From Sandaracinus amylolyticus (lineage in GTDB: Bacteria > Myxococcota_A > Polyangia > Polyangiales > Sandaracinaceae), in contig NZ_CP070225.1 of the NCBI RefSeq assembly GCF_021631985.1, positions 2,728,001 to 2,792,000 on the forward strand: a DNA stretch of 64,000 bases, written 5' to 3'. The notes under the pieces are model-generated. The model made no database searches and was not told where the DNA came from. It was given only the letters and a program-made list of their open reading frames with translations. Below are positions 4,031 to 50,627 of the stretch, in pieces (the first letter of the stretch is position 1; the number at the start of each line of letters is the position of its first letter). The position numbers and the translations under genes were made by a program.

Positions 4031-4102
4031 GGGCGTTTAACTCAGTGGTAGAGTGCCACCTTCACACGGTGGAAGTCGCTGGTTCAAATCCAGCAACGCC
4101 CA
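4031..4102 (+). tRNA. tRNA-Val (anticodon CAC)
   Basis: The cloverleaf can be drawn fully. The acceptor arms are GGGCGTT (4031-4037) and AACGCCC (4095-4101) with discriminator A at 4102. The anticodon stem is CCACC/GGTGG with loop TTCACAC, so CAC lies at 4063-4065. The T-arm is GCTGG-TTCAAAT-CCAGC. CCA is not encoded. It lies between two hairpin terminators, so it is probably transcribed on its own. Confidence 0.96.
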
Positions 4103-4140
4103 GATAGAACACGCAGTTCTTAGAAGGAACGCAGTGAATA

Positions 4141-4175
4141 GGGCTCGTAGCGTCAGCTACGGGCCCTTCGCTTTT
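4141..4175 (+). terminator. Rho-independent terminator after tRNA-Val
   Basis: The stem GGGCTCGTAGC/GCTACGGGCCC has 11 pairs with one G-T wobble and a GTCA tetraloop. It is followed by TTCGCTTTT, a clear U-rich tail. Confidence 0.85.
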
Positions 4176-4186
4176 CCGTCGTTCGA

Positions 4187-4534
4187 TCACGCGTCGCGCG
4201 CGAGCACCGGCACGTCCTCGATGCGCGTGAAGACGAGCGCGCCGCGCGCGCGGAACCGCTCGACCTCGTCGTCCGCGCCCTTCGACGGACCACCGACGCG
4301 CAGCACCGCGTCGCAGCGCTCGGTGAGCGCGAGCGAGACCGGCATCATCAGCTCGTCGAACCGCTCCGCACCCGCCACCGCGATCATCGGCAGCGCCATG
4401 TTCACGCCGATGATCGGCACGTGACCGCGCCGGAAGACCTCGATCGCCGCCTCGTTCATCACGTCGAGGTTGCGCTGCCGGTCCGCGTCGGTGCGCGCGC
4501 CGGACGTGTAGGGCCCCGAGACCATGATCCACAT
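4187..4534 (-). CDS. DUF4406 (nucleoside 2-deoxyribosyltransferase-like) protein
   Basis: This 115-aa protein opens with MVSGPYTSGARTDADRQRN, the Rossmann-like strand and loop typical of DUF4406 and the nucleoside-2-deoxyribosyltransferase superfamily. It continues with GHVPIIGVNMALPM and CDAVLRVGGPSKGADDEV, which match the family's second half and its nucleotide/sugar-binding loop. The biochemical role of DUF4406 is not established. It lies 30 bp downstream of the PAP2 phosphatase gene on the same strand and is probably co-transcribed with it. Confidence 0.8.
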   Translation of the reverse strand: MWIMVSGPYTSGARTDADRQRNLDVMNEAAIEVFRRGHVPIIGVNMALPMIAVAGAERFDELMMPVSLALTERCDAVLRVGGPSKGADDEVERFRARGALVFTRIEDVPVLARDA

Positions 4535-4564
4535 GGTCGAGCCGTACGCGCTCGACGCGCGCGA

Positions 4565-5278
4565 TCACCCCGGCGCTTCGTGCGCTTGCTCGTGGGCCTC
4601 TTCGACGGTCTCCACCGTGCCGCGACGCTGGAGCACCGTCATCGCGGTCCAGCAGAAGAGCGCCCACGCGAGCCCGAGCGTCCATCCCGCGAGCACGTCG
4701 CTCGGGAAGTGCACCCCGAGCGCGATCCGGCTGAGCCCCACGAGCACCGTGAGGAGCGCCGCGACCCCGACGATGTACGCGCGCAGCCGGCGTCGCTCGA
4801 CGAGCCGCGCGAGCAGCGCGGCGAGCGTGAGGTACACGACCGCCGAGAGCGCCGAGTGCCCGCTCGGAAAGCTCGTCGTGCTCACGATCGCATCCGCGAC
4901 CAGCCGCGGTCGCTCGCGCGCGAAGAGCTCCTTCAGCAAGAAGGTCCACGCGGTGCCCCCGAGCGCCGCCACGAGCACCAGCACGAGCGCGCGATGCAGC
5001 CGCGAGAGCGCGAGGAAGCCGACCACCGCGGTGGTGACCAGCGTCAGCACGGTGATCGATCCCAGCGCCGTCACGTCGCGCGCGATCTCCGCGAGCGTCG
5101 TCGAGCCCGCGACCTCGCGCGGCGCGTCGGGCTCGCGCACCAGGCGCAGCACCGCGTCGTCGAAGACCTGCGTGTCCCCCTCGCCGACCTCGTCCGCGAC
5201 CCACGCGAAGACCCAGAGCGACGAGACGGTCGCGAGCATCACGAGGAGCAAGCGCAGATCGGTCGGTCGCAGCTTCAT
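4565..5278 (-). CDS. PAP2-family membrane phosphatase
   Basis: This 237-aa integral membrane protein has about six hydrophobic segments and all three signature motifs of acid phosphatase/lipid phosphate phosphatases: KELFARERP (KX6RP type), SFPSGHS, and SRIALGVHFPSDVLAG (SRX5HX3D). Such proteins dephosphorylate undecaprenyl pyrophosphate, phosphatidate or phosphatidylglycerol phosphate on the outer face of the inner membrane; the substrate here cannot be told. The ATG at 5278 (MKLRPTD) was chosen because the hydrophobic region starts directly after it and the longer reading frame upstream encodes only Arg-rich noise. Confidence 0.9.
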   Translation of the reverse strand: MKLRPTDLRLLLVMLATVSSLWVFAWVADEVGEGDTQVFDDAVLRLVREPDAPREVAGSTTLAEIARDVTALGSITVLTLVTTAVVGFLALSRLHRALVLVLVAALGGTAWTFLLKELFARERPRLVADAIVSTTSFPSGHSALSAVVYLTLAALLARLVERRRLRAYIVGVAALLTVLVGLSRIALGVHFPSDVLAGWTLGLAWALFCWTAMTVLQRRGTVETVEEAHEQAHEAPG

Positions 5279-5351
5279 GCGCGACCTCGTCGTCGTGCGA
5301 GCGCCACACGCTCGCTCATGGGCGCGGCAGCGCAGCGCGCCAAACCAGATG

Positions 5352-5392
5352 CTCGGCGAGGCGTGCGATCCGTGACCGCACGCCTCGCCGAG
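5352..5392. repeat. Perfect 16-bp inverted repeat (9-nt loop) between divergent genes
   Basis: The arms are CTCGGCGAGGCGTGCG at 5352-5367 and its exact reverse complement at 5377-5392, around the loop ATCCGTGAC. It lies between the divergently transcribed PAP2 (-) and Kelch (+) genes. Neither side has a T-run. It may be an operator, a leader structure or a mobile-repeat remnant. The rest of the 5279-5541 intergenic region holds no gene I can support. Confidence 0.8.
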
Positions 5393-5541
5393 GGTGATTG
5401 GTGGCGTGGCACCGCGCCGTGTCCTGGCCAGGCGCCCCGGTGCTCGCCGCGCATTCAACTAGCCGCAGCTCACGGTGACGACAAGCGACGCGTCCGCGAC
5501 GTGCGGGCGACGGCTCTCGGGCGTGTGATAGGGTCGCCGTC

Positions 5542-7506
5542 GTGCGCTTCGTTCGTTGCCTCGCGCCCGCACCGTTCACCCTCGCCATGCTCGCTCTCGC
5601 GGTCGGGTGCGGCGGTGGAGAGCGCGCAGATCTCCGCATCGAGCTCGCCGCCACACCCGAGCCGGGCAGCACCGACGGCGATCGCCAGTGCGATCCAGGC
5701 TCGCCCGCAGCGCTGCCCGCCGAGGTCGATTGCGTGACCGTGACCGCGTGCCGGCGCGAGGGCGCGAGCTGCCTGCCGATCGACGTGCTGCGCCCGTCCG
5801 ACTCGCGCGATGCGCGCACGACCGAGCTGCGCTTCCCCCGCGAAGGCAGCGGCGGTGATCTCGCGTTCGACGTCGCGCTCGAAGACGGCGCGGACTACGA
5901 GATCGAGCTGCGCGCGTACGCGGGCGGCGTGCCCTACGCGCGCGGTCGCGCCGAGGGCGTGCGCGCGGGGCAGCGCACGATCCGGGTGCGGCTCGAGCCC
6001 TACGGCGTGTGGTCGTGCGCGCCGCCGCGCGACGACGGCAGCGCACCGCTCGCGCGCGCGCTGCACGCCGCGGTCGCGGTGCCCAACGGCGACGTGCTGC
6101 TCGTCGGCGGCGTGACCGGCGAGTCGGTGCAGGCGCTCTCGGTCGAGGGCGGCGCGCTGCTGCAGCGCACGGTCGAGGTCTACGACGCGTCCGAGGCGCG
6201 CTTCGTCGAGATCGACGTGACCGATCACGACGGCAGCGAGGGCGTCGGCGCGGTGTTCCATCGCGCGCTCTTCCTCGACACGCTCGCCGACGGTCGATAC
6301 CGCGTGCGCGTGATCGGCGGCTTCACCTCGCGCGATCAGCCCGGCGCGCGCTTCGACGCGATCCAGGGCCTCACGAACTACAGCTCGCCGATGCTGCCCG
6401 GCGCGCGCGCCGAGCGGCGCGACTCGGTCGATCTCCTCTACGACCCGCGCTCGCGCGCGATCGAGGTGCAGCTCGTCGACCCCGGCGCGGTCCAGCGCGC
6501 GGGCATGAACGGCGTGAGCGAGCCCGATGCATCGGGGCTCGTCGTCGTCGCGCTCGGACTGCTCGACGGAGGCGGCACGGCGCTCCGTCCGAGCCCGATG
6601 ATCTCGGGCCAGTGGTACTCGCTCGCGCGCCAGGTCTCGCCGGGCGTCACCGCGATGCCGATGCTCGCGCCGCGCTTCGGGCACACCGCGTCGCGCCTCT
6701 CCGACGCGAGCGTGCTCGTGTGGGGCGGCGACGTGACGCAGCCGACGATCGAGGACGTCGCAGCGAACGCGGGCGAGGTGCTCGGGAGCGGTGCGCGTGC
6801 GGTCGCGAGCGTGCCCGACCTCCCGCCCGCGACGGCGTTCCACACCGCGACCCCGATCCGCGGTGGCGTGTTGATCGCCGGCGGCATGGAGATCGCGCCG
6901 GTCGCGGGCATGTCGGGCGGCGTGAGCACCACGGCGTCCACGCGCCCGCTCACGGTGATCGTGGAGGACGGCGCAGACGGAACGCTGCGCGGCGTGCCGG
7001 TGAGCTACGACGCGACCGCGTGGCCCACGCCGAGCATCCACGCCTCCACCGCGCTGCCCGGCGGGGCGGTGATGGTGAGCGGCGGCGCGCTCCGCACGAT
7101 GCCCGCGGGCGCGCCCTCTCCCTCGCACCTCTGGGCGAGCGACGCGGTGCTGCTCGTGTCTCGCGACGAGGCCGACGCGTACGTCGCGAGCACGCTCGCG
7201 CCGATGATCGGGCCGCGCTGGGGCCACGCCATCGCGCCGCTCTCCGGCGGGCGCGTGTTGGTCACCGGCGGCTTCGTGCGCGAGGGCGGCACGCTGCGCG
7301 CGATCTCGAGCGGCGAGACGTTCATCGTCGACCCGCCTCCGCCGCCGATCGCGAGCTGCGAGGCCCAGACCAACGGCGACGGGGGCACGCGCGACGGCGG
7401 CCAGGGCGACGACGCGTCGATCGCCCCCGACGCGACCATCTCCGACGACGCGAGCGTGCCTTCGGAGGACGCCGGGATCCCGCCCGCGGACGACGCTGGC
7501 GTGTGA
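5542..7506 (+). CDS. Secreted Kelch-repeat lipoprotein with Asp-rich tail
   Basis: This 654-aa protein has a signal sequence ending in AVGC (Cys23), so it is probably a lipoprotein. From residue ~170 it contains at least five Kelch-type blades, each with an [AH]-A/T...G-VL-V-GG pattern (GDVLLVGG, SVLVWGGD, GVLIAGGME, GAVMVSGGA, GRVLVTGGF), consistent with a beta-propeller. The C-terminus is a low-complexity Asp/Gly/Ala tail (about 615-654), common in cell-surface proteins of large myxobacteria. GTG at 5542 was chosen because the signal peptide begins there. Function unknown; probably surface binding or scaffolding. Confidence 0.8.
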   Translation: MRFVRCLAPAPFTLAMLALAVGCGGGERADLRIELAATPEPGSTDGDRQCDPGSPAALPAEVDCVTVTACRREGASCLPIDVLRPSDSRDARTTELRFPREGSGGDLAFDVALEDGADYEIELRAYAGGVPYARGRAEGVRAGQRTIRVRLEPYGVWSCAPPRDDGSAPLARALHAAVAVPNGDVLLVGGVTGESVQALSVEGGALLQRTVEVYDASEARFVEIDVTDHDGSEGVGAVFHRALFLDTLADGRYRVRVIGGFTSRDQPGARFDAIQGLTNYSSPMLPGARAERRDSVDLLYDPRSRAIEVQLVDPGAVQRAGMNGVSEPDASGLVVVALGLLDGGGTALRPSPMISGQWYSLARQVSPGVTAMPMLAPRFGHTASRLSDASVLVWGGDVTQPTIEDVAANAGEVLGSGARAVASVPDLPPATAFHTATPIRGGVLIAGGMEIAPVAGMSGGVSTTASTRPLTVIVEDGADGTLRGVPVSYDATAWPTPSIHASTALPGGAVMVSGGALRTMPAGAPSPSHLWASDAVLLVSRDEADAYVASTLAPMIGPRWGHAIAPLSGGRVLVTGGFVREGGTLRAISSGETFIVDPPPPPIASCEAQTNGDGGTRDGGQGDDASIAPDATISDDASVPSEDAGIPPADDAGV

Positions 7507-38293: not shown

Positions 38294-39571
38294 ATGACTT
38301 CGAAGAGCAACGCGGCTGTCCGGATCCTCGCGACCGGGGCGATCAATCGGCCCGACATCCTCGCCGTGCTCGACAAGCTGCGTCCCGTCGCACAGCTGGA
38401 ATTCGTCGAGTACTCGCAGATGTACTCGGAGCCGCTCGCTCCGGAGCGATATGCGCCATACGGGCCGGTGACCCCGTGGGAGCAGTACACGAGCGCACAA
38501 TCTCTGCTCGATTCCACGCGTCCCGCGGCGATCGTGCTCTTCTACGTGTCTTCGCTCAATCAGGTCGCTCTACGAATCGCGGCGCACTCGCGAGCGATCC
38601 CCACGATCCACGTCGAGCACGGTATTCGTCTCTCGCCAGAGGACCCGCTGGCGCGCAGGTTCCTGCGCGAGCAGGCGCAGAAGCGGTTCTCTCGGCGTCG
38701 CCCTAGCCTGATTTCGACGCTGGCGAATTATCGGTTCGCACTCGGGACCTGGGCGCGTCTGACCGGTGTCCATCGAGCCGCTCTGGGCCGATATCTCGCG
38801 ACTGTGGGCCTGCGGGGCGCGACTTATGAAGTGCTCCAGTCGACTGCGAACATCCGACGGCCCGACGGGTATCTCTCGTTCTCCGAGCAGTGTCTGGCGT
38901 ACCACCGCGACGTCGATCGCATCCCGGGTAGCTGGCCGACGAAGCTGGTCGGTTTCCCGCAGTTCGACGAGTTCCTGCCGCGGACGGCGGACGTGGACCC
39001 GCGGCTCGCGGTCCTGATCGATCATCAGTTCCACAATCTCGGCTTGTTCGGGTGGACGAACGATTTCCGGACGACGTGGGTCGCCCGTATCGTCGACCTC
39101 GTCGAGAAGTTCGATTTGCGTCTGTTGGTCAAACAGCATCCCGAGGATCGCAGTGGCGCCTGGGAGCGGTGGCGAGGACACCCTCGCATCGAGGTCGTCG
39201 ATCGAGACGGGCTCATGGACGCGCTTCCGCGTGTCGGACTGATCCTCGGCACGTTCTCGACGCTGCAGATCCCGCTCGCAGCGATGCCTCACACCGCGCT
39301 CGTGACGCTCGAGATTCATCCGAACCCCGATGAGTTCCCTTCGAGGTCTTTCGTCGAGACGGGCGCTGCGACGGCCGCTTTCACATGGGACGCGCTCGAG
39401 CGACTGATCTCGCGACGAGCCGAGCTCGCGCGCGAGCAGGCAGCGCGCAAGGACGCGTTCATCGAGAAGTTCCTCCACAAGATGGATGGACGCGCAGGAG
39501 AGCGGCTTCGAGACGCTTTGATGACGCTCGACTGGGCGCCCGTTCGTCGATTCGGGATGGAGGACGCGTGA
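38294..39571 (+). CDS. GT-B-like glycosyltransferase, polysialyltransferase/Kps-like (candidate nonulosonic acid transferase)
   Basis: This 425-aa protein is not a GT4 or GT2. It has a GT-B-like layout: N-terminal RILATGAINRPDILAVLDKL and PTIHVEHGIRLSPEDPLARRF, C-terminal LRLLVKQHPEDRSGAWERW and GLILGTFSTLQIPLAAMPHTALVTLEI. A Lys-x-His-Pro motif followed by a GTFST-like loop recalls bacterial sialyl/polysialyltransferases and capsule Kps enzymes. Because the adjacent minus-strand operon makes a CMP-nonulosonic acid, I infer that this may be its transferase. The match is by motif only; it could use another donor. Confidence 0.55.
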   Translation: MTSKSNAAVRILATGAINRPDILAVLDKLRPVAQLEFVEYSQMYSEPLAPERYAPYGPVTPWEQYTSAQSLLDSTRPAAIVLFYVSSLNQVALRIAAHSRAIPTIHVEHGIRLSPEDPLARRFLREQAQKRFSRRRPSLISTLANYRFALGTWARLTGVHRAALGRYLATVGLRGATYEVLQSTANIRRPDGYLSFSEQCLAYHRDVDRIPGSWPTKLVGFPQFDEFLPRTADVDPRLAVLIDHQFHNLGLFGWTNDFRTTWVARIVDLVEKFDLRLLVKQHPEDRSGAWERWRGHPRIEVVDRDGLMDALPRVGLILGTFSTLQIPLAAMPHTALVTLEIHPNPDEFPSRSFVETGAATAAFTWDALERLISRRAELAREQAARKDAFIEKFLHKMDGRAGERLRDALMTLDWAPVRRFGMEDA

Positions 39572-40146: not shown

Positions 40147-40287
40147 GCCGCACGAGTTCCGTGCGCGTGCACGGGGCGGCTCTGGAGCTCACGCGCTCGA
40201 ATGCGACGAGCCGTCTCCGCATCTCACGTGCGGGCTCGTCACACGAGCCGCCGGAGATGCCGCACCGAGAAGCGGACAGCGTGCCTG

Positions 40288-41328
40288 ATGGAAACCCCTC
40301 CGAAACGACTCCTCTCGATTGATCTGCTTCGTGGCGTGTGCGCGCTCGGCGTGGCGATCTATCACCTCGCGAGCTGGCTCGACCTCGCGCACCTCTACAA
40401 TCTCGGCCTCTACGGCGTGTACGCGTTCTTCGTGATCTCGGGCGCGAGCATGACGCTCGCGTACGACGGACGTTTCGCGCGTGGCTACTCGATTCCGAAA
40501 TTCCTGGCGTTGCGATACGCGCGACTGGCCCCGTTGTACGTTGCGATCTGCGTCTACGTCGTCCTCGTCGCGCTCGTCACGGGTCAGCTCGACCACGAGC
40601 TCCTCGGAAAAGCGGCGTTGAACGTCACGTTCCTCTTCGCGTTCGCAAACCCAGGCGACACGTCCATCGTCGTCGGTGGATGGTCCCTGGGGATCGAGTT
40701 CGTCTTCTACCTTCTATTTCCACTGCTGATCGCGCTCTCCCGACAGCGCTGGTATCCGGCCCTCGCCGCGGGGCTCGTCGTCCTCCAGATCGTCTTCGTC
40801 AACCTGCTGCTTTCGGGGTCGACGGACTTCGTCGAGAGCTGGTCTCGCTACACGCAATTCGGATCGTTTGCCGGCTACTTCGCGGTCGGTGTGTGGATCG
40901 GCCGTCGACGGCTCGCGACGGCGAACCGACGCGTGCACGAGCGAGTCGCGGCGGGCGTTGCGATCCTCGCGGCGACGCCGCTCTTGTTCGCGCACGGAGC
41001 GAGCTCGGTCGACTCCCTCACCGGGCTCCGTGGAACGCTCATCGCGGTGTGCACGCTGCTGCTCGTGGCGAGCGTTGCAGAGATCGACCTGCGCGGAGGC
41101 GCGGCCCGCGCGGCGGAGGTGCTCGGTGACGTGAGCTATCCGGTCTACCTACTGCATCCCGTCGTGTTCGCTCTGATGAGGTCGCGACGAGTGCTCGGTG
41201 GGTTCGCCGATGTTCACCCGATCATGTTCGCAGCGGTCGTGCTGGCGACATCCCTCGCCGTCGCAGTGGTCGTGCATCGACGAATCGAGACGCCGCTCGT
41301 GCAGCGCCTGAGAGCGGCGGTCGGTTGA
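40288..41328 (+). CDS. Acyltransferase family 3 (OafA/YrhL-like) membrane protein
   Basis: This 346-aa protein has about ten membrane segments and the family signature at its start: RLLSIDLLRGVCALGVAIYHLASW (R-x10-H), YGVYAFFVISGASMTLAY and KFLALRYARLAPLYVAI. SIVVGGWSLGIEFVFYLLFPLL is also typical. Such proteins O-acylate surface glycans from the inner membrane. The preceding 141 bp holds no gene. The gene converges with pseF and closes the plus-strand exopolysaccharide block. ATG at 40288 (METPPKRLLSIDLLRG) fixes the usual N-terminus. Confidence 0.9.
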   Translation: METPPKRLLSIDLLRGVCALGVAIYHLASWLDLAHLYNLGLYGVYAFFVISGASMTLAYDGRFARGYSIPKFLALRYARLAPLYVAICVYVVLVALVTGQLDHELLGKAALNVTFLFAFANPGDTSIVVGGWSLGIEFVFYLLFPLLIALSRQRWYPALAAGLVVLQIVFVNLLLSGSTDFVESWSRYTQFGSFAGYFAVGVWIGRRRLATANRRVHERVAAGVAILAATPLLFAHGASSVDSLTGLRGTLIAVCTLLLVASVAEIDLRGGAARAAEVLGDVSYPVYLLHPVVFALMRSRRVLGGFADVHPIMFAAVVLATSLAVAVVVHRRIETPLVQRLRAAVG

Positions 41329-41347: not shown

Positions 41348-42064
41348 TCAGGCTCGCGTCGTTTCGAGCGGGCCGTACGCGCGATAGAGCGCGGACGCCA
41401 TGCGCAGGTCCTCGGGCTCGTCGATGTCGACCGCACGATGCCACGGCATCGCGTGGAACCGGTGATCGGGCCCGTAGAACGTGCGCGCTTCGAGGAGCGC
41501 TTCGGTTCTCGCGATCCACGTCGCCCCGGTCGGGCAGTAGATCGACTCGAGATCCTGAGAGCGCTTGAGGCGCTCCGACGGGAAGAGCGGCGCGGGACGG
41601 CCCTCCGCGTCCAGCCGCACTGCCCACCATGCGTGCGCCCATCCCAGGTCGAAGCACGAGATCTGGAACCGCGCGCCGGAGCGTTCGAAGTGCTCCACTC
41701 CATCGCGGATGTCGGCTGCATTGCGCAGCGGGCACGCCGCGAAGAGCTGGACCACGACGTCGCACTCCAGCCCCTCGGCCGCCAGTCGCTCGATCGCGCT
41801 GACCGTTGCGAGGCTCACGGGGGAGTGATCGTCCGCGTACGCCTCGCGCAGGAAGGGGACCTCCGCGCCGGATCGCCTCGAGATCTCGGCGATCTCCTCG
41901 TCATCCGTGCTGACGATGATGCGATCGAAGAGACCGCATTCGCGTGCCGCGTCGATCGTCCACGAGATCAGCGGCTTTCCTTCGAGCTCGACGACGTTCT
42001 TGCGGGGGATGCGCTTCGAGCCGCCGCGCGCGGGGATGATCGCGAACCGACGCTGCGCGCTCAT
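41348..42064 (-). CDS. pseF: CMP-nonulosonic acid synthetase (pseudaminic acid cytidylyltransferase type)
   Basis: This 238-aa protein has the CMP-NeuAc synthetase/KdsB-like motif IIPARGGSKRIPRKNV, then IIVSTDDEEIAEI, VVVQLFAACPLRNAADI and HAMPWHRAVDIDEPEDLRMA. It activates the nonulosonic acid with CTP for transfer to glycans. It is the last gene of a nine-gene minus-strand operon and overlaps the upstream oxidoreductase by 4 bp (ATGA). The PseF/NeuA distinction rests mainly on the neighbouring pse genes. Confidence 0.9.
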   Translation of the reverse strand: MSAQRRFAIIPARGGSKRIPRKNVVELEGKPLISWTIDAARECGLFDRIIVSTDDEEIAEISRRSGAEVPFLREAYADDHSPVSLATVSAIERLAAEGLECDVVVQLFAACPLRNAADIRDGVEHFERSGARFQISCFDLGWAHAWWAVRLDAEGRPAPLFPSERLKRSQDLESIYCPTGATWIARTEALLEARTFYGPDHRFHAMPWHRAVDIDEPEDLRMASALYRAYGPLETTRA

Positions 42065-43047
42065 TCGACGACCTCCGCGAGCTGCGCACGCTCGGCGAGC
42101 TCCATGACCGTGAGCAAATGGAGTGAGTCGGAGAGCGTCGCTGCGGTGCTCGCGCGACCTGATACGAAATCGAGGAAGTCGATCATCTGCGCTCGATAGA
42201 AGTCGAAGGGCACTTCGGGTGCGCGATGGAGCTCGACCGCCGCACCGTCGTAGGGCGTGAATCGCACGACACCGTCGGTGAACGAATAATCGAGCCGCCC
42301 GCCGGTGCCCTGGATCCACCCGTGTCGGCGATAGGACGGAGAGAGGTAGTCGAGATCCACCATCACCTGCGCGCCGCGCTGTGTTCGGAGCACGAGAGCA
42401 ACGCTGTCGTCGACGTCGATCTCGAGATCGGAGAGACGTGCGACATCGCCGGTCACGCTCACGAGGCGACCCATCCAGTGCAGCACGAGATCCAGCTCGT
42501 GCGAGATCGTCCGCAACACTCCGCCGCCGAGGTCACGACGCGCCGAGTACTCGGTGCGGTAGTCGGCATCGGGATGGAATTTGGGGAGGTGTTGTCCGAA
42601 CGACAGCTGCGCGCGCACGATCCGACCGAGCGGCGCACCCTCGCGGGCGAGAAGGTCGTGCACCGCGCGCACGAGCGGGTGGAAGCGCAGGCAGTACGCG
42701 ACGCGAATGCGATCGGCGGCTGCGATCACCGCCTCGGACAGCTCGTTGCGGTGCGCGACGAGCGGCTTCTCGACCAGCGCGGGGAGGCCGGGCCTCGACG
42801 CGATGCGCGCGAGCGCCTCGCCGTGCAGCGCCGTGGGCGTGGCGACGATCACACCGTCCAACGACGACGACCAGAAGCGATCGGCGTCTCGCTCCTCGAT
42901 CACGAACGAGAGGTCGGTGGGCAGCTCGCGCGTCGCTCCACGGCCGCTGCGCAGGGCGAGGACTCGATCGACACCGAGGTCCTTCAGGCAACGCGCATGG
43001 CGACGACCGATCGAGCCCAGCCCGACGACGCCGATGGTGAGGCTCAT
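42061..43047 (-). CDS. Gfo/Idh/MocA-family oxidoreductase
   Basis: This 328-aa protein has an N-terminal Rossmann motif GVVGLGSIGRRHARCL and LDGVIVATPTALHGEA. The catalytic-lysine motif VEKPLV is present, and the C-terminal sheet domain includes LGGGVLRTISHELDLVLHWMG, where the conserved His follows the GGG turn. It probably oxidises or reduces a nucleotide sugar or nonulosonic precursor. It overlaps neighbours by 4 bp on both sides. Not part of the canonical six-enzyme Pse pathway. Confidence 0.85.
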   Translation of the reverse strand: MSLTIGVVGLGSIGRRHARCLKDLGVDRVLALRSGRGATRELPTDLSFVIEERDADRFWSSSLDGVIVATPTALHGEALARIASRPGLPALVEKPLVAHRNELSEAVIAAADRIRVAYCLRFHPLVRAVHDLLAREGAPLGRIVRAQLSFGQHLPKFHPDADYRTEYSARRDLGGGVLRTISHELDLVLHWMGRLVSVTGDVARLSDLEIDVDDSVALVLRTQRGAQVMVDLDYLSPSYRRHGWIQGTGGRLDYSFTDGVVRFTPYDGAAVELHRAPEVPFDFYRAQMIDFLDFVSGRASTAATLSDSLHLLTVMELAERAQLAEVVE

Positions 43048-43931
43048 CGGCGCCCCGCCTCGATCAGCCGCACGATCGTTCGCGTCTCGTCGCGCGCGAT
43101 CGGAATGGTGCGCTCGGTGATCGACGTCACGAACACGCGGAGCGCTTCGCGGAACGCGGTGAACGAGTCGGAGAACACGAGCGACGCGTCGCCCGCGTTC
43201 CCCAGCACGTGGATGCGGATCGCGGAAGGAAGCGACGACGTCGTCGTGAAGCGGACGTCGAGCCCGTCGGGAAGCGTCACGTCGAGATGGTCGAGAGGGC
43301 CACGCTGGTGTCGGGTCGTTCGCGCGTCGCCCCACGACGCGGCGGAGAGCTGGGCGACGACCGTCTCGATCCCGTGGACCGCGTAGGTGTCCCAGTACTT
43401 CGGGATGATCGCGTGCACGAGGCGCGGCTCGCCGACCTTCGCCGGATCCCAACGGAGCTCCGACGCGTAGCGCAGCGCCGAGCACGAGTAGATCTGACCG
43501 TCGTAGCGCTGCATCGCGAGCAACGCGTCGAGGTCGCGCTCGGTGAGCGCGATCGGCTTGTCGACGTAGACGGGCAGCCCCGCTTCGAGGAACGGCCGCG
43601 CGAGGCTTGCGTGTTGCGCTGCGTCGTCACGCGCGAGCAGTACGGCGTCGACCTCGCCCACCATCAGCTCGGGACGGTCCACGACGCGCGCGATGCGCGA
43701 TGCGCGCGCGACGTCCTCTGCAATCGCGCGTTCCTGTGCCCAGACGTGCGTGACGCGCGCGAGAGCGCCGAGCGATTCCTCCGGGAATCTGCGGAGCCGA
43801 AGGTACGCCGGAATGGCAGGGAACGGACACGACGCCATGTGCTTGGCGTCGTATCCATTGAAGATCGCCGACCACGAGTACGGGTGACCGTTGCCCTCCG
43901 AGAGCCCGAGGATCCCGAGTCGAAGCGTCAC
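43044..43931 (-). CDS. Second Gfo/Idh/MocA-like oxidoreductase, DKP variant
   Basis: This 295-aa protein lacks the classical GxGxxG (it reads LGILGLSEGNGHPYSWSAI) but keeps the rest of the fold: VDAVLLARDDAAQHASLARPFLEAGLPVYVDKPIALTERD. The usual EKP is DKP, with the Lys retained. It is shorter than typical members, with a reduced C-terminal domain. I infer a second oxidoreductase for tailoring the nonulosonic acid or a related sugar. GTG start; 1 bp from the aldo/keto reductase stop. Confidence 0.75.
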   Translation of the reverse strand: MTLRLGILGLSEGNGHPYSWSAIFNGYDAKHMASCPFPAIPAYLRLRRFPEESLGALARVTHVWAQERAIAEDVARASRIARVVDRPELMVGEVDAVLLARDDAAQHASLARPFLEAGLPVYVDKPIALTERDLDALLAMQRYDGQIYSCSALRYASELRWDPAKVGEPRLVHAIIPKYWDTYAVHGIETVVAQLSAASWGDARTTRHQRGPLDHLDVTLPDGLDVRFTTTSSLPSAIRIHVLGNAGDASLVFSDSFTAFREALRVFVTSITERTIPIARDETRTIVRLIEAGRR

Positions 43932-43932
43932 G

Positions 43933-44808
43933 TCAGCTCCAGTTCGTCGGCAGGAGGATTCGTTCGTCGTCGAGCGGGAGCCCGCGCGTCGCGTCCTCGA
44001 CCGCGCCTACGTCGAACCGACGGGCGGCGGTCCGGAGGTGCTCGCGAAGGTGATCCACTCCGTCCACGCCGACGACGGCGGCATCGATGCCGCCGTGCGA
44101 CAGCACGAACGCGAGCGCGATCTCGATCGGCGTCGCGTCGAGGTCGGCGGCGACTCTCCCGAGCGCTCGGAGGGTGGGTAGGATTGCTTCGAGCCGCGTC
44201 GGCACCCGCTCTGCCGGCAGCGTCAACAACCCTTGCAGGAAGACCGACCGCGCGTGGACCTCGACGCCGCGTGCGCGCAGCTCCGGGAGCAAGGGCTCGA
44301 ACCGGCGATCGACGACGCTGAAGGGGACCTGCACGAGATCGATCGGGGCTCCCGACCGCAGCACGTCCTCGAGATCCTGGGGCCGGTAGAACGACACGCC
44401 GATGCGGGCCGTCCCACCTCGCGCGCGATGCTCCGCGAGCGCCTGGAGGACGGCGGGCTCTCGCCGGAACGTCGCCACGTCGTGGAGAAGCACCGCGTAC
44501 GGGGTGACGCCGAGCCTTGCGTACGATTCCGAAAGCCGCGCATCGACCTCATCGCCGCGCGTGTTCGCCGGGAGCTTCGTGACGACGCGGAACGCGTGCT
44601 GGGGCGGCATGCTCTCGCCGAGCACGCGCTCGCTCTCGCCGTATGCGATGGCAGTGTCGAGCGTGCGCACGCCTGCGTCGTGGGCGTGCGCGAGGATCTC
44701 GCGAACCTCGTCGGGCGGGACCTGGCCCCGCTGGTTCGCGATGCCGTAGCCGAGCCCGAACTGCACCGTGCCGAGGGCGAGCTTGGCGATCCGATCCGCC
44801 ACGCTCAC
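43933..44808 (-). CDS. Aldo/keto reductase
   Basis: This 291-aa TIM-barrel NADPH-dependent reductase has the catalytic residues visible: Asp and Tyr in RTLDTAIAYGESERVLG, Lys in FRVVTKLPAN and His in YAVLLHDVATF. C-terminal TPIEIALAFVLSHGGIDAAVVGVDGVDHLREHL forms the cofactor end. AKRs of this type occur in some nonulosonic and deoxysugar loci. GTG at 44808 gives a 4-bp overlap with pseI; a second in-frame GTG lies at 44802. Confidence 0.85.
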   Translation of the reverse strand: MSVADRIAKLALGTVQFGLGYGIANQRGQVPPDEVREILAHAHDAGVRTLDTAIAYGESERVLGESMPPQHAFRVVTKLPANTRGDEVDARLSESYARLGVTPYAVLLHDVATFRREPAVLQALAEHRARGGTARIGVSFYRPQDLEDVLRSGAPIDLVQVPFSVVDRRFEPLLPELRARGVEVHARSVFLQGLLTLPAERVPTRLEAILPTLRALGRVAADLDATPIEIALAFVLSHGGIDAAVVGVDGVDHLREHLRTAARRFDVGAVEDATRGLPLDDERILLPTNWS

Positions 44809-45851
44809 TCCAGCGCGTCCCACGTGAGCCGCGTGCCGCGCGGGAGGTCTCGACGCGCTGTGCGCCCGAGCACCTCGGGCAAGTACTTGGGCGGAAGCCC
44901 GTAACCGGGGCGGATCGCGCGGACGTTCTCGCTCGTGAACGCCTCGCCGGCGCGCACGTCCTTCACGATGTAGAGCGAGCGACGGAACGCGACGTTCTTC
45001 TCCTCGCTCACTTCGCGCGCGTAGGTGATGTTCCCGACCGCTTCCCACGCGGTGCGGCAGCCCCGTACGAGCTCGCCGAGCTCGGCAGGCTCGAGCGAGA
45101 ACGCGGAGTCCGGTCCGCCATCGGAGCGCCGCATCGTGACGTGCTTCTCGATGAACGCGGCGCCGAGCGCGACCGCAGCGGCGGCGACCGTCGTGCCGAG
45201 CGTGTGATCGGAGAGCCCCGTGACGACGTCGAATGCGTCCGCCATGTGCGGGATGGTCCGCAGGTTCGCGTCGGTCGCCGGCGCCGGGTATGCGCTGATG
45301 CAGTGCAGGACGATCAGCTCACGTGCGCCGTTGCTGCGCGCCGTGTCGACCGCCTCCTGGATCTCGCCGAGGTTCGCCATCCCGGTCGAGATGATCATCG
45401 GCTTGCGCGTGCGCGCGCAGCGCGCGATCAGCGCGAGGTCGATCGCCTCGAACGACGCGATCTTGTACGCCGGCGCACCGAGCTCCTCGAGCAGGTCGAC
45501 CGCGCTCTCGTCGAACGGAGTGCTGAACACCGTGAGCCCGAGCTCCCGACCCTTCGCGAAGAGTGGGGCGTGCCACTCCCACGGCGTCTGCGCCTCCTTG
45601 TAGAGGTCGTAGAGCGAATACCCGTCCCACAAGCCGCCGCGGATCTGGAACTCCTCCTGCGGCGCATCGATCGTCATCGTGTCGGGCGTGTACGTCTGGA
45701 GCTTCACCGCGTCCGCGCCTGCCGCCTTCGCGGCCTGCATGATCTCGAACGCACGGCCGATGTCGCCGTTGTGGTTCGCAGAGAGCTCGGCGACGACGTA
45801 GGGCGGATCCTGCGTCGAGATGCGGCGACCAGCGATCGTGACGGCTCGCAT
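44805..45851 (-). CDS. pseI: Pseudaminic acid synthase (NeuB family)
   Basis: This 348-aa enzyme condenses a 2,4-diacetamido-trideoxyhexose with PEP. The NeuB barrel begins YVVAELSANHNGDIGRAFEIMQAAKAAGADAVKLQTYTPDTMTI. The run SLYDLYKEAQTPWEWH and STPFDESAVDLLEELGAPAYKIASFE matches PseI better than sialic-acid NeuB. FIEKHVTMRRSDGGPDSAFSLEP follows, then the C-terminal SAF antifreeze-like domain (FRRSLYIVKDVRAGEAFTSENVRAIRPGYGLPPK). It sits 20 bp after pseG/H in the operon. Confidence 0.93.
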   Translation of the reverse strand: MRAVTIAGRRISTQDPPYVVAELSANHNGDIGRAFEIMQAAKAAGADAVKLQTYTPDTMTIDAPQEEFQIRGGLWDGYSLYDLYKEAQTPWEWHAPLFAKGRELGLTVFSTPFDESAVDLLEELGAPAYKIASFEAIDLALIARCARTRKPMIISTGMANLGEIQEAVDTARSNGARELIVLHCISAYPAPATDANLRTIPHMADAFDVVTGLSDHTLGTTVAAAAVALGAAFIEKHVTMRRSDGGPDSAFSLEPAELGELVRGCRTAWEAVGNITYAREVSEEKNVAFRRSLYIVKDVRAGEAFTSENVRAIRPGYGLPPKYLPEVLGRTARRDLPRGTRLTWDALE

Positions 45852-45871
45852 GGGTTCTCCTGGGCGTCGGG

Positions 45872-47365
45872 TCAGGTCGGTGAGGTCAGGGGGCGAACGA
45901 GGAGCCACGCGGGTACGTCCGCGACGATGGTGTCGGACTCGTGCGCGAACCCGGCGCGCTCGAACGCAGCGCGCGAACGCGGATTGTCGCATCGAATGAA
46001 CGCGCGGACGCGACGCGCTCCGGAGCGCCATGCGACTCGCGCGACACCGGCCTCGATCACGCGCGCTGCGAGCCGGCGGCCACGGTGCTCGGGCGCGATC
46101 GTGATCCCGATGTCGACGACGTCGGCCTCGGACCGATCGAAGCGGACGAGGCCGATGTCTCGCTCCTCGCGATCGACGGCGATCCAGAGCCACGCGTCGA
46201 TGCTCTGCCGCTTGCTCGCGAACCAGCGGAGGTGATCGTCGAGCGGGATCGGTGCGCTCCGGAAGGACCCGCTGCGAGTCTCGGGGTCGTTCGCCCAGGC
46301 GTGGAGCAGCGGACCGTCTTCGGCGCGCACCGCCCGCAACCGCAGCTCGGCGGCGTCGAGGTGCATCGCGACGCGCGCGGCGCCTTCGCCGTCGATCAGC
46401 TCCTGGCCGCGCCTCGCGAGCTCCGTCCGTGCCGTGCGTGAGCCCACGAGGTGCACGAGGGCTTCACGCACGTCGGCGGCCCCGAAGTCGTCTGCAGATC
46501 CCAGCGCGTGCGCGATCCCGAGGCGAGCTGCGGAGCGGAGCACGGGCTCCTGGTTCGGCGCCGTCGACACGAGCGCCATGGGCGTGCCGAGGTAGGCGAG
46601 CTCCCAGGTCGTGCTGCCCGACGCGGCAATCGCGAGGTCGGCCCGCGCGAGCCGCACCGGAACGTCGGGAGGATCGATCAACGTGTCGACGCCGCGTTCC
46701 GTCGTGGAGCGCGCGGAGAGCGAGGCCGCGTCGGGATTCGCTGCGCCCACGAGCGCGGTGATCTCGAGATCGGGCGAGATGCCCCTCAGCAGCTCGATCG
46801 CGCGCGTGGTCAGGCGCGAGGGGTCGGCGCCGCCGAACGTGACCAGCACGCGAGACGCTCGCTCGGGGTGCGTCCGATCGGGGCGCGATGACGAGAGGAA
46901 CTCGCGGCGGAGCATCGCGAACCGTGCGCCGGCCAGCACGGCGCCGTTCGCGCGTGGGTAGAGCGCTTCGTCTCCGTGCAGGTTCTGGTTGAGCACGTCG
47001 CTCGCGATCGCCTCGCGCGAGCCGTCGTCATCGATCACCAGCGTGCGGTGCCCTGCGCGCGCCAGCTCGTCGGCGTACCGCGAGCCCATGTGGTAGCCGT
47101 CGACGACCACGGCCCGCGGTGCGATGTCGCGCAGCGCGCGAAGCGTCTCCCGGAGATCGTCGCCGTCTCCGGTGCCGCGCGCCCCGATGACCTCCACGTG
47201 CTCGCGCGTGAGACGCTCGACCAGCCGCGGGGGCGACGACGTCAAGAACACGGCGCGCCCACCGCGCTCCTGCCACGCGTGCGCGAGCGCGAGCGAACGC
47301 AGCACGTGCCCGACGCCGATCCTGGGTCCGGCGTCCGCGCGGACGACGAGCACCGGCGCGGTCAT
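45872..47365 (-). CDS. pseG: PseG (UDP-sugar hydrolase) fused to a PseH-like GNAT acetyltransferase
   Basis: This 497-aa fusion has residues 1-330 as the GT-B-fold PseG hydrolase that removes UDP (VVRADAGPRIGVGHVLRSLALAHAWQERGG, LVIDDDG, VLVTFGGADPSRLT, ADLAIAASGSTTWELAYLGTPMALV). Residues about 335-497 form a GNAT acetyltransferase (LRAVRAEDGPLLHAWANDPETR, DIGITIAPEHRGRRLAARVIEAG), as in PseH, which acetylates the 4-amino group. PseH acts just before PseG, so the fusion joins consecutive steps. No separate pseH is present. Starts at 47365, overlapping pseC by 4 bp. Confidence 0.9.
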   Translation of the reverse strand: MTAPVLVVRADAGPRIGVGHVLRSLALAHAWQERGGRAVFLTSSPPRLVERLTREHVEVIGARGTGDGDDLRETLRALRDIAPRAVVVDGYHMGSRYADELARAGHRTLVIDDDGSREAIASDVLNQNLHGDEALYPRANGAVLAGARFAMLRREFLSSSRPDRTHPERASRVLVTFGGADPSRLTTRAIELLRGISPDLEITALVGAANPDAASLSARSTTERGVDTLIDPPDVPVRLARADLAIAASGSTTWELAYLGTPMALVSTAPNQEPVLRSAARLGIAHALGSADDFGAADVREALVHLVGSRTARTELARRGQELIDGEGAARVAMHLDAAELRLRAVRAEDGPLLHAWANDPETRSGSFRSAPIPLDDHLRWFASKRQSIDAWLWIAVDREERDIGLVRFDRSEADVVDIGITIAPEHRGRRLAARVIEAGVARVAWRSGARRVRAFIRCDNPRSRAAFERAGFAHESDTIVADVPAWLLVRPLTSPT

Positions 47366-48567
47366 CGAGCGAGCGCGGTCGCGATCACGTCCACGACGCG
47401 ATCGACGTCGGCATCTTCCATAGCCGGAAAGAGCGGCAGGCTCAGGCATCCCGCGTAGTAGCGCTCGGCGCCGTCGAAGACGCCGCCCGAGAGCCCGCTC
47501 GCGACGAAGTCGGGTTGGCGGTGGACAGGGATGTAGTGGACCTGCGGCAGGATCGCTGCCTCTCGCAGCGCGGTGTACAGCGCGAGCCGACGCGCCGCGA
47601 CCGACTCGAGCGCCTCCCGATCGCGCGGGACCAGCCGCGCCACGTACAGGTGGTACGACGACGTCACCCCGGGACGCACGCGGAGCGGCACGATCCGATC
47701 GGCGAGCGCGGCGAGAGCCCGGTCGTAGCGCGCTGCGAGCTCCCGGCGTCGCTCGACGAAGCGCGCAGCCTTGCGCATCTGCGAGAGGCCGAGCGCGCAC
47801 TGCACGTCGGTGATGCGGTAGTGGTAACCGAGCGTTCGCTGCTCGTAGTACCAGGGCCCCTCGTTGCGCGTGAGGCGCGCAGGATCCTTGGTGATCCCGT
47901 GGGTGCGCAGCTCGAGGAGCTCGCGGTACGCGCCCTCGTCGTTCGTGACGATCGCGCCGCCCTCGCACGTCGTGACGTGCTTCACCGGATGGAACGAGAA
48001 GATCGCCATGTGCGCGTGCGATCCGCTGCCCGCACGATGCGCGCGACCGTCGTGCTCGTAGCTCGCGCCGAGCGAGTGCGCGGCGTCCTCGATCACGATC
48101 GCGCCGAGCTCGTCGGCGAGCGCGCGGACCGCCGGCAGATCGGCGATTGCTCCCGAGAAATCCACGGGGATCAGCACGCGCGTGGCTTGACCGGCTCGCG
48201 CGAGGTCGTTCGCGGCCGCGCGCATCGAGTCCACCCGCACGAGCGCGGTCTCGGGATCGACATCCGCGAGGCGAGGTGCTCCGCCCGCGTAGCGAATCGC
48301 GTTCGCGGAGGCAACGAACGTGATGTCCGACGTGACGCCGCCGACGCCGGCGCGCACGCCCGCCGCGAGGCATGCGAGGTGGAGCGCCGCCGTGCCCGAC
48401 GCCACCGCGACGGCGTACCGCGCGCCCGCGACCTCCGCGACCGCCCCTTCGAATCGTGCGACGGTCGGGCCCTGAGTGAGCCAATCGCCGCGCAGCGTCT
48501 CGACGACCGCCGCGACGTCGTCGTCATCGATGAGCTGCCGACCGTAGGGGAGAAGACGCTGGCTCAC
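47362..48567 (-). CDS. pseC: UDP-4-amino-4,6-dideoxy-hexose transaminase (PseC-type, PLP)
   Basis: This 401-aa DegT/DnrJ/EryC1-family aminotransferase has the N-terminus PYGRQLIDDDDVAAVVETLRGDWLTQGPTVARFE and YAVAVASGTAALHLACLAAGV, typical of PseC. The PLP lysine is in FSFHPVKHVTTCEGG. It converts the 4-keto sugar from the dehydratase into the 4-amino sugar for the GNAT domain of the next gene. GTG start at 48567, one base from the upstream stop. Confidence 0.92.
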   Translation of the reverse strand: MSQRLLPYGRQLIDDDDVAAVVETLRGDWLTQGPTVARFEGAVAEVAGARYAVAVASGTAALHLACLAAGVRAGVGGVTSDITFVASANAIRYAGGAPRLADVDPETALVRVDSMRAAANDLARAGQATRVLIPVDFSGAIADLPAVRALADELGAIVIEDAAHSLGASYEHDGRAHRAGSGSHAHMAIFSFHPVKHVTTCEGGAIVTNDEGAYRELLELRTHGITKDPARLTRNEGPWYYEQRTLGYHYRITDVQCALGLSQMRKAARFVERRRELAARYDRALAALADRIVPLRVRPGVTSSYHLYVARLVPRDREALESVAARRLALYTALREAAILPQVHYIPVHRQPDFVASGLSGGVFDGAERYYAGCLSLPLFPAMEDADVDRVVDVIATALAR

Positions 48568-48568
48568 G

Positions 48569-49591
48569 TCACCACGCCCATCGGTTGGAGTCGAGCCACG
48601 CGCGAGTGCGACGCAAACCCTCCTCGAGGCTCGTCTTCGGCTCCCATCCGAGAAGGCGCTTCGCCTTCGACGCGTCGGTGCAGAGCCGCATGATCTCGGC
48701 CTGCGGGTGATCGTGCGGCACCCGCTCGACGATGTTCGAGCCCGTTCGGCAGAGCTCCGCGAGGTCGCGCACTGCGATGTCGCGGCCGGTGCCGGCGTTG
48801 ATCACCTCGCCCTCGGCCGCGTCGCTCGTCGCAGCGCGCACGACGAAGTCGGCGCAGTCCTCGACGTACAGGAGGTCACGCGTCTGCTCACCCGTGCCCT
48901 TCACGAGGAGCGGCTTCCCGGCGAGATCGCGCTGCAGGAAGATCGACACGACGCCCCCTTCGCCGTTGCTCTTCTGGAACGGGCCGTACGTGTTGAACGG
49001 CCGAACGACCGTGACCGGCAGCCGATACGCGTGGAAGTACGAGAGCGCGAGATGATCCGATGCGATCTTCGACGCCGCGTACGGCGATGCAGGTCGGAAC
49101 GGATGCGTCTCGACGATGGGCGTCGACGACGTCGCGTACACCATGCAGGTCGACATCACGACCACGCGCGGACGCCGATCGCGCAGGCGCGGCACGTCGC
49201 GATCGAAGTCGAACTGTCGCGCATCGACGTCGAGGCCGTTCCGCGCGAAGTACTCGCGACGGCAGGCCTCGAGCACACGAAAGGTGCCCTCGACGTCGTT
49301 GCGAAACGTCGGGTACGGATCGTCGATCGACTTCTGCACGTGGATCGACGCGCCGAGATGGAGCACGAGATCCCACGGCCCACGGCGGAACACGCTGCCG
49401 AGCACCTCGGGATCGGCGAGGTCGCCGTGCACGAGGCCGGTGAACCCCGGGTGTCCCTCCAGCTCGCGCAGGTTCTCTCGCCGGCCATTGCTGAGGTCGT
49501 CGAGCGCGAGCACTTCGTGCCCGTCGTCGAGGAGACGCTGCACGACCCAGCGCCCGATGAATCCCGCTCCTCCGGTGATCAAGCAGCGCAT
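48569..49591 (-). CDS. NAD-dependent epimerase/dehydratase (extended SDR)
   Basis: This 340-aa protein has LITGGAGFIGRWVVQRLLDDGHEVLALDDLSNG, DLVLHLGASIHVQKSIDDP, the active-site Tyr/Lys in SPYAASKIASD, and RPFNTYGPFQKSNGEGGVVSIFL. It belongs to the extended SDR nucleotide-sugar epimerases and dehydratases (GalE/GDP-mannose dehydratase-like). It is not one of the standard Pse enzymes, yet lies inside the operon between the dehydratase and pseC. It may make a further sugar or change the stereochemistry of the precursor. Confidence 0.85.
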   Translation of the reverse strand: MRCLITGGAGFIGRWVVQRLLDDGHEVLALDDLSNGRRENLRELEGHPGFTGLVHGDLADPEVLGSVFRRGPWDLVLHLGASIHVQKSIDDPYPTFRNDVEGTFRVLEACRREYFARNGLDVDARQFDFDRDVPRLRDRRPRVVVMSTCMVYATSSTPIVETHPFRPASPYAASKIASDHLALSYFHAYRLPVTVVRPFNTYGPFQKSNGEGGVVSIFLQRDLAGKPLLVKGTGEQTRDLLYVEDCADFVVRAATSDAAEGEVINAGTGRDIAVRDLAELCRTGSNIVERVPHDHPQAEIMRLCTDASKAKRLLGWEPKTSLEEGLRRTRAWLDSNRWAW

Positions 49592-49592
49592 C

Positions 49593-50627
49593 TCAGCTCC
49601 TCGGCGCGAACGGGTCGAGGACCCGGGTCTCGCGCAGATACGCGACGATCTCGTCACGCGTCATCAGTCGGTCGTTGCCCGAGTGCCATTCCCGATCGAC
49701 GACGCGACCGTCGGGAAAATCCGCGAGCTCCGGCCGGTCGGGGTACCGCGTCTCGGCGGGGGGAAGGATCACCAGCAGCGTGTCGAGATCGAGCGCGCGC
49801 CCTCGCTCGTCAGCCGCCAGCAGCTCCTCGTACAGCTTCTCTCCGATACGCGCGCCGGTGCGCACGATCTCGCAGCGTCCGCCGGAGAGCAGCTCGGCCA
49901 TCGCGTGGGCGAGGTCGGCGATGCGCAGCGCGCGCATCTTGGTCACGAAGACTTCGCCGCCCTTCATGCGCTCGCCCGCCTGGAGCACGAGCTCGGCCGC
50001 CTCTTCGATCGTCATCACGTAGCGCGTCATCGCGTCGTCCGTGAGCGTCAGTGGCTCTCGACCGAGGAGCTGGCTGGCGAAGATCGGCAGCACCGAGCCG
50101 CGTGATCCGATGACGTTGCCGAAGCGGACCGACGCGAAGCGGGTCCGGCGCGGCCCTCGGATCTGATTCGCCGCGGTCACGAGCCGCTCGCCCATCATCT
50201 TCGACGCGCCCATCACGTTCGTCGGGTTCACCGCCTTGTCCGACGAGGTGAAGATCACGCGCTCGACGTTCGCGTCCAGCGAGGCGCGGAGCACGTTGTC
50301 GAGCCCGACCAGGTTCGACTGCACGACCTCGAACGGGTTGTACTCGCCGAGCCCGACGTGCTTGAGGGCTGCCGTGTGGAACACGACGTCCACGCCGTTC
50401 ATGGCGAACCGCAGTCGATCGAGGTCGCGGATGTCGCCGAGCTGCGGTGCGACGTGGCCACGTCCCTGCAGCCGCTGGTGGAGGAAGAAGAGCTCGCTCT
50501 CCGCGTGGTCGAAGGCGCGCACCGCCTTCGCGTGCGACGCGAGTCGCGCACACAGCGCCGAGCCGATGGTCCCGGCCGCACCGGTGACGAGGACGGTCTT
50601 GTCTTTCACATACGCGGGGACGAGCAC
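49593..50627 (-). CDS. pseB: UDP-GlcNAc 4,6-dehydratase (PseB/CapD-like, short form, Met variant)
   Basis: This 344-aa soluble SDR has VLVTGAAGTIGSALCARL, TAALKHVGLGEYNPFEVVQSNLVG, the catalytic segment TSSDKAVNPTNVMGASKMMGE, and VRFGNVIGSRGSVLPIFASQL. The residue normally Tyr in inverting PseB (Y-x-x-x-K) is Met here, as in retaining WbpM/PglF-type dehydratases, so the stereochemical outcome is uncertain. GTG at 50627 was chosen because AGGAG lies 5 nt upstream. It is the first gene of the pse operon, after a 204-bp gap that must hold the promoter. Confidence 0.85.
   Translation of the reverse strand: MLVPAYVKDKTVLVTGAAGTIGSALCARLASHAKAVRAFDHAESELFFLHQRLQGRGHVAPQLGDIRDLDRLRFAMNGVDVVFHTAALKHVGLGEYNPFEVVQSNLVGLDNVLRASLDANVERVIFTSSDKAVNPTNVMGASKMMGERLVTAANQIRGPRRTRFASVRFGNVIGSRGSVLPIFASQLLGREPLTLTDDAMTRYVMTIEEAAELVLQAGERMKGGEVFVTKMRALRIADLAHAMAELLSGGRCEIVRTGARIGEKLYEELLAADERGRALDLDTLLVILPPAETRYPDRPELADFPDGRVVDREWHSGNDRLMTRDEIVAYLRETRVLDPFAPRS

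Follow-up and report, generated by a model that had tools for sequence, protein, structure and literature searches.

A 64,000-nucleotide stretch of the Sandaracinus amylolyticus genome (assembly GCF_021631985.1, contig NZ_CP070225.1, positions 2,728,001 to 2,792,000 of the forward strand; hereafter the window) carries a nine-gene operon for pseudaminic acid (Pse), a nine-carbon relative of sialic acid displayed on the cell surface, on its minus strand (window positions 50627-41348). The operon ends in a four-gene cassette encoding an aldo/keto reductase (AKR), two Gfo/Idh/MocA proteins (Gfo1 and Gfo2) and a predicted cytidylyltransferase (CTase), here termed PseF'. Comparison across genomes supports a cassette that is conserved, mobile and tied to its own CTase rather than to PseB, PseC, PseG or PseI. 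We think it reasonably probable that the operon makes a stereochemically altered Pse activated with cytidine monophosphate (CMP), the cassette acting on free Pse, likely at C8, and PseF' activating the product. An original prediction made for this DNA had proposed either a modified nonulosonic acid or a second sugar made in step; the former is supported by the recurrence, in many phyla, of the three oxidoreductase genes between PseC and a distinct CTase subfamily and by the parallel of Pse C8-epimerisation, and the latter is not supported.

A cassette tied to its own cytidylyltransferase

The operon consists of nine adjoining minus-strand genes, as had been predicted, in the order Pen-like short-chain dehydrogenase/reductase (SDR), Pal-like SDR, PseC, PseG-PseH fusion, PseI, AKR, Gfo1, Gfo2 and CTase (g1 to g9). 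The junctions, expected to be 4 bp or 1 bp, measure +1, +1, -4, +20, -4, +1, -4 and -4 bp, so that seven of the eight agree and one is a 20-bp gap. The identical nine-gene order is found in a sister species (genome G177, locus L124) at 86-98% identity.

A domain search confirmed that the operon holds one AKR and two Gfo/Idh/MocA proteins. The AKR (g6, 43933-44808; 291 residues, GTG start; PF00248, 114.4 bits) belongs to a nonulosonate-associated subfamily whose signatures, LGTVQ-G--YG and RS-FLQG, are common to fused and unfused relatives. Its residues D51, Y56, K78 and H109, which we take to be the Asp-Tyr-Lys-His catalytic tetrad of AKRs, are present in at least 98.5% of 73 aligned rows. Gfo1 (g7, 43044-43931; 295 residues, GTG start; PF01408, 36.7 bits against a cut-off of 24) has, as was originally noticed, DKP and no GxGxxG. 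Its glycine-rich loop, G-x-S-x-G-N-G-H-P, reads GxxxGxG, and residues D124, K125, G9, G13 and G15 occur in at least 98.5% of 80 rows; the classical Gfo/Idh/MocA pairing of GxGxxG with EKP is missing across the whole subfamily, and DKP with the odd glycine loop is a family trait, not decay. Decay of Gfo1 is ruled out by these family-wide motifs together with a confident AlphaFold2 model, which shows the full two-domain Gfo/Idh/MocA fold (predicted local distance difference test score 97.5). The model is closest to GenD2 (Z 26.8, root-mean-square deviation 2.2, 260 residues aligned), KanD2 and KijD10, which oxidise or reduce sugar hydroxyls, and the top Foldseek match is the UDP-N-acetylglucosamine (UDP-GlcNAc) 3-dehydrogenase GnnA. 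Gfo2 (g8, 42061-43047; 328 residues; PF22725, 52.4 bits; PF01408, 34.8 bits) has GxGxxG and EKP. PseF' (g9, 41348-42064; 238 residues; PF02348, 88.4 bits), the predicted cassette-specific CMP-nonulosonate CTase, scores 187.8 bits against the PseF model TIGR03584, under the cut-off of 205.7.

A scan of genome contigs returned at least 575 relatives of Gfo1, which rules out a curiosity restricted to the window, and the best 80 of these were examined. The AKR adjoins Gfo1 on the same strand in 68 of the 80 loci. Gfo1 is followed by an SDR in 55 loci, Gfo2 in eight, a class-III aminotransferase in five, PseF' directly in three, an SpsF-like CTase in one, PseC in one and another or no gene in five, with two more loci reaching the contig end. 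Cassette loci are usually ordered PseB-PseC-AKR-Gfo1-SDR/Gfo2-PseF'-PseG-PseI, and plain plasmid operons mostly PseB-PseC-PseF-PseG-PseI. The third cassette slot, occupied by Gfo2 in the window, thus holds an SDR in most relatives; the window's Gfo2 clusters with eight other slot-3 Gfo2 proteins (SH-aLRT 98), apart from Gfo2 relatives found elsewhere. Judged by record titles, the hosts include Pseudomonadota, Bacteroidota, Bacillota, Zixibacteria, Chlorobiota, Verrucomicrobiota and Prochlorococcus.

The association with PseF' is visible in phylogenies. In a tree of 72 PseF-type proteins, a single branch (100/100) divides 57 cassette proteins, the window's included, from 15 plain ones, and the 57 still form one group (99) when 16 further CTases are added. 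The other trees require many more changes of label: 15 for PseI, 15 for PseC, 16 for PseB/Pen and 14 for PseG, of which well-supported branches force at least nine, nine, seven and six, respectively. Because PseC and PseG usually flank the cassette and yet mix in their trees, linkage alone is insufficient to account for the PseF split; as its sole cause it is rejected on the PseC, PseG, PseI and PseB trees. Eleven of the 80 Gfo1 loci (L039, L044, L058, L067, L070, L077 and L089-L093), judged to be without a recognisable Pse-type operon or the cassette, were left out of the cassette group in the trees; rows under the coverage limits or containing stops were dropped as well, and locus L005, which has an AKR with an SpsF-like CTase and a class-III aminotransferase and lacks Gfo1, was labelled plain in the PseI, PseC, PseB and PseG trees.

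Cassette and plain CTases are separated by 21 alignment columns, ten of which share no residue. Two deeply separated groups will differ at some columns in any case, and the position of such columns matters more: F108, C111, W147 and W183 of PseF' align with Q104, S107, K142 and Y179 of Neisseria NeuA, presumably sugar-pocket residues or neighbours of these. Q106, C111, F126, P178, A181 and W183 make up the residue signature of PseF'. A PseF' of more than 40% identity is present in 57 of the 72 loci without a class-III aminotransferase match and in none of the eight with one; therefore, the third enzyme and the CTase go together. A cassette tied to the CTase, and not to the enzymes up to PseI, would act after PseI, at or before CMP transfer, and the comparisons thus support a cassette step between PseI and CMP transfer.

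The same association was followed in two samples that were not selected on Gfo1: 299 genomes from the family to which Salinimicrobium marinum belongs and 80 Psychrobacter genomes. Gfo1 was found in three of the 299, and CTase matches (E<=1e-30) at 22 places in 20 genomes. The same three genomes carry a close CTase type, 50-100% identical to the query from S. marinum, adjoining Gfo1 and with the signature; at the other 19 places the protein is 30-37% identical to that of the window, and the full signature is absent from every one. Coincidence of the two triplets by chance in 299 genomes has a probability of ~2e-7.

Among the Psychrobacter genomes, PseI was present in 14 and Gfo1 in five. Eight PseI genomes without Gfo1 were read (G318, with a 35% match, was left out): PseC is followed by plain PseF in five, an SpsF-AKR pair with an SDR behind it occurs in another, a further one has an AKR with SpsF and a class-III aminotransferase, and the last is cut by the contig. 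The slot after PseC therefore has four contents in this genus, namely plain PseF, a CTase-AKR fusion with an SDR, an AKR with SpsF and a class-III aminotransferase, and AKR-Gfo1-SDR-PseF', and Psychrobacter species represent natural plain/cassette pairs. In one genome (G336, locus L204), the AKR, PseG and PseI matches are each in pieces, which points to misassembly or to a decaying AKR-SpsF-aminotransferase operon.

Closer to the window, a plain pse set in a relative that keeps the extra genes at another site, an arrangement at odds with the original prediction, was searched for in 282 Myxococcota genomes and not seen. Gfo1 (E<=1e-10) occurs in two of these genomes, both of this genus, and PseI (E<=1e-60) in 38, so that the relatives are without Gfo1 rather than keeping it elsewhere. 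CTase matches were found in 43 Myxococcota genomes outside the genus; ten returned a locus, and none of these ten checked loci has the PseF' signature.

Several other replicons were noted in these searches. Nonulosonate clusters also occur on two haloarchaeal (Halorussus) plasmids, L004 and L009: in one, a Gfo1 relative lies next to an SDR and a CTase, and in the other, a Gfo2 relative accompanies genes resembling those for Pen, Pal, PseC and PseG. In Subdoligranulum (L011), the Gfo1 match is partial and the other eight operon genes were all not found. Phages gave no match for Gfo1, the AKR or the Marinovum fusion, viral contigs gave no relative of Gfo1, and none of the ten viral-contig loci matched by the AKR alignment was recognisable as the prophage system EpaA/EpaB. 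Uncultivated viral contigs (L168, 4096-7680; also L167, L169 and L176) carry consecutive genes for PseB-like, AKR, SpsF-like and class-III aminotransferase proteins, close to a possible terminase gene.

Core pathway genes and neighbouring genes

The first five genes cover the route to Pse. The product of g1 (49593-50627; 344 residues, GTG start; PF02719, 309.9 bits) is a Pen/PseB-like SDR and predicted UDP-GlcNAc dehydratase. Its best match in the PDB is 6bwc (E=2.3e-70), which we take to be Pen, followed by FlaA1/PseB (2gn4), and its score against the PseB NCBIfam model is 264.9 bits, under the cut-off of 407.75. At the triad position, g1 has Met where the 6bwc and 2gn4 (FlaA1) chains have Tyr; Met at the third triad position is also reported for SpsM and, in passages of PMC7439481, for CapE.

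The neighbouring gene g2 (48569-49591; 340 residues) encodes a Pal-like SDR that matches PDB entry 6bwl, titled 'Pal' (E=1.1e-99), with a common STCMVY segment. A Pal homologue thus adjoins a Pen/PseB-type dehydratase, and the PseB step is presumably carried out by Pen and Pal in this operon, as the same passages relate for Bacillus thuringiensis, in which the two jointly stand in for PseB (PMC7439481). Two further Myxococcota loci of the same order (L141 and L142) have Pen-Pal-PseC at 62-70% identity and neither AKR nor Gfo1. Because g2 is Pal, and because Pen-Pal-PseC occurs in these loci without AKR or Gfo1, g2 is core rather than extra; the 6bwl match rules out the 'extra epimerase' that g2 had been called, and the four additional genes once counted reduce to three (AKR, Gfo1 and Gfo2).

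PseC (g3, 47362-48567; 401 residues, GTG start) is an aminotransferase that scores 434.5 against TIGR03588 (cut-off 423.5). The 497-residue g4 product (45872-47365) joins a PseG hydrolase (TIGR03590, residues 6-274; 186.5 against a cut-off of 153.55) to a PseH-like GNAT domain (PF13302, residues 341-473). The PseI synthase (g5, 44805-45851; 348 residues) scores 500.1 against TIGR03586 (cut-off 340.25) and is the sole NeuB-family match in the genome. The claim that all canonical Pse steps are covered is therefore sound by function, and by strict family it fails at g1 and g9: the PseI, PseC and PseG cut-offs are all passed, and those of PseB and PseF are both missed.

Two plus-strand genes beyond the operon were also noted. 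A convergent gene of the acyltransferase-3 family (40201-41328), ending ~20 bp from the operon end, could encode an O-acylating enzyme for the sugar or glycan, and a 425-residue protein without a Pfam match (38294-39571), within a polysaccharide locus, is a candidate glycosyltransferase for the nonulosonate.

A proposed route and its alternatives

In the route that we propose, g1 to g5 would build Pse5Ac7Ac from UDP-GlcNAc, as the families of these enzymes suggest. The cassette dehydrogenases would oxidise one hydroxyl of free Pse, most likely the C8 hydroxyl, to a ketone, which the reductase of slot 3, Gfo2 in the window and usually an SDR in relatives, would reduce again with the opposite stereochemistry, and PseF', a subfamily matched to the altered sugar, would attach CMP. 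Dehydrogenases accompanied by an exchangeable reductase or aminotransferase fit the formation of a ketone followed by stereo-defined reduction or by amination. C8 is named as the likely site because EpaA/EpaB and the acinetaminic acid systems, with the same kinds of part, act there, and the product would most likely be 8-epi-pseudaminic acid or a close C7/C8 isomer. We infer the carbon attacked, the division of labour among AKR, Gfo1 and Gfo2 and the product. Gfo1 may have a role beyond the EpaA/EpaB scheme, either in oxidation or in C7 epimerisation beside the ketone, the latter giving an undescribed isomer.

Other explanations were weighed against this route. The AKR and Gfo proteins might instead make an N-acyl substituent of Pse, such as a hydroxy-acyl group, with the stereochemistry unchanged. 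Passages of PMC7281560 describe an unusual N-acyl form, 5-N-[(R)-2-hydroxypropanoyl]-Pse, in Psychrobacter marincola, and PIG-L deacetylase-like matches are found close to PseI in some cassette loci; such matches are far from universal, however, the cassette itself includes neither an acyltransferase nor a ligase, and the structural neighbours of Gfo1 (GenD2, KanD2 and KijD10) are sugar dehydrogenases or ketoreductases, all of which makes this explanation unlikely. We consider it similarly improbable that the three oxidoreductases supply a separate precursor and leave the nonulosonate untouched, as is thought for PtmA/PtmF in the route to legionaminic acid linked to guanosine diphosphate. Gfo2 relatives do occur in PtmE-Gfo-CTase-SDR arrays (on a Sulfitobacter plasmid), the PtmF of Plesiomonas is described in PMC4481668 as an oxidoreductase and the cassette SDRs match the PtmA model, if under its cut-off; yet PtmE is not usual in cassette loci, the core route begins with UDP-GlcNAc, and an exclusive tie to one CTase subfamily would be unexpected for precursor supply.

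The order of events may also differ, with the cassette acting on CMP-Pse after CMP transfer, as has been proposed for CMP-legionaminic acid (CMP-Leg) epimers in Acinetobacter, where the products of the Aci/8eAci/8eLeg genes are suggested to use CMP-Leg5Ac7Ac (PMC5595891). PseF would then meet ordinary Pse and a cassette-only clade would not be needed, and we give this order little credence. Less probable still is an ordinary CMP-Pse product, PseF' being a PseF equivalent whose companion dehydrogenases are inactive or unrelated. In favour of this, most cassette loci show no PseF-type CTase other than PseF', and its best annotated plasmid relatives bear the label pseF. The conservation of the AKR tetrad (73 rows) and the Gfo1 lysine (80 rows) argues against inactivity, however, slot 3 is exchanged between unrelated enzymes, and discriminating residues of PseF' lie at NeuA positions that presumably contact the sugar.

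Alteration of free Pse before activation is thus the explanation that we favour, and several observations weigh against it. The 80 loci were picked by their likeness to the window's Gfo1. Some Gfo1 loci have no recognised Pse genes nearby (e.g. L089-L093), so that Gfo1 also works in other settings. The bootstrap of the PseF tree was only partly settled (correlation 0.956), and a Selenomonadales metagenome-assembled genome (L080) has both a plain-type and a cassette CTase. EpaA and EpaB, moreover, 8-epimerise without a Gfo/Idh/MocA protein, and Gfo1 needs a role that this precedent does not supply. The L080 locus (1646-7189) is arranged as plain-type PseF-AKR-SDR followed by Gfo1-SDR-PseF'.

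The four cassette genes constitute a widespread, swappable set that probably alters sugar stereochemistry before activation. PseI/NeuB and PseF are the usual basis for predicting nonulosonic acid structures. Should the cassette determine the end product, many bacteria annotated as Pse makers make something else, and a single gene, recognised by the PseF' signature, would tell which sugar is made and help to predict bacterial surface sugars. The vague label 'oxidoreductase' would also give way to a defined set of enzymes that can be tested for making epimerised nonulosonic acids.

Comparison with known systems

The operon shares PseC, PseG, PseH, PseI and the general order with canonical pse operons (PseB-C-F-G-H-I; Mesorhizobium, Klebsiella and Acinetobacter baumannii plasmid records), most of which differ in having PseF directly after PseC; neither AKR nor Gfo1 gave a match in 14 plain plasmid loci (L012, L013 and L143-L154). 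With the Pen/Pal route of B. thuringiensis it shares tandem Pen-like and Pal-like SDRs followed by PseC; a difference is that the third triad residue is Met in g1, as in SpsM, and Tyr in the 6bwc chain. That route to CMP-pseudaminic acid was reportedly the subject of a 2015 study in JBC, which PMC7439481 cites. The aciABCD/aciE and elaABC systems for acinetaminic and 8-epilegionaminic acids (PMC5595891, PMC9676051), likened here by description only, also place oxidoreductase modules beside a nonulosonate pathway, but their substrate is legionaminic acid. In the acinetaminic acid system, exchanging one SDR for another alters the C8 configuration (PMC5595891).

A literature search found no paper on such a Pse/nonulosonate and Gfo/AKR cassette, although its spellings missed hyphenated and slashed forms and absence from print is not established, and the novelty of the AKR-Gfo1-SDR/Gfo2-PseF' cassette is provisional. 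Cassette-like parts without Gfo1 are already in print: passages of PMC7371886 describe an SpsF-AKR fusion with a dehydrogenase after PseC in Vibrio. The capsule of Psychrobacter arcticus 273-4 contains Pse5Ac7Ac, according to passages of PMC7281560.

The closest functional parallel by kinds of part is provided by EpaA (CTase and AKR) and EpaB (SDR) of A. baumannii prophages, which convert Pse5Ac7Ac to 8ePse5Ac7Ac, as determined by nuclear magnetic resonance according to passages of PMC12053666. Matched from this description, both systems combine an AKR, a dedicated CTase and a dehydrogenase. The window operon lacks the fused CTase-AKR with SDR: the AKR (g6) and the CTase (g9) are encoded by separate genes, Gfo2 stands in place of the SDR, and Gfo1 is an additional component. 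A fused CTase-AKR with an SDR occupies the same operon slot in one Psychrobacter locus (L199), where the CTase is SpsF-like, while PseF' of the window is a relative of PseF. We tentatively suggest, as a possibility rather than an expectation, that the slot after PseC is an exchangeable 'sugar-defining' site, in which plain PseF would yield Pse, the EpaA/EpaB type 8-epi-Pse, AKR-Gfo1-SDR/Gfo2-PseF' (the window's kind, with Gfo1 as an extra step) an undescribed C7/C8 isomer, and AKR-(Gfo1)-SpsF-aminotransferase an amino-substituted sugar.

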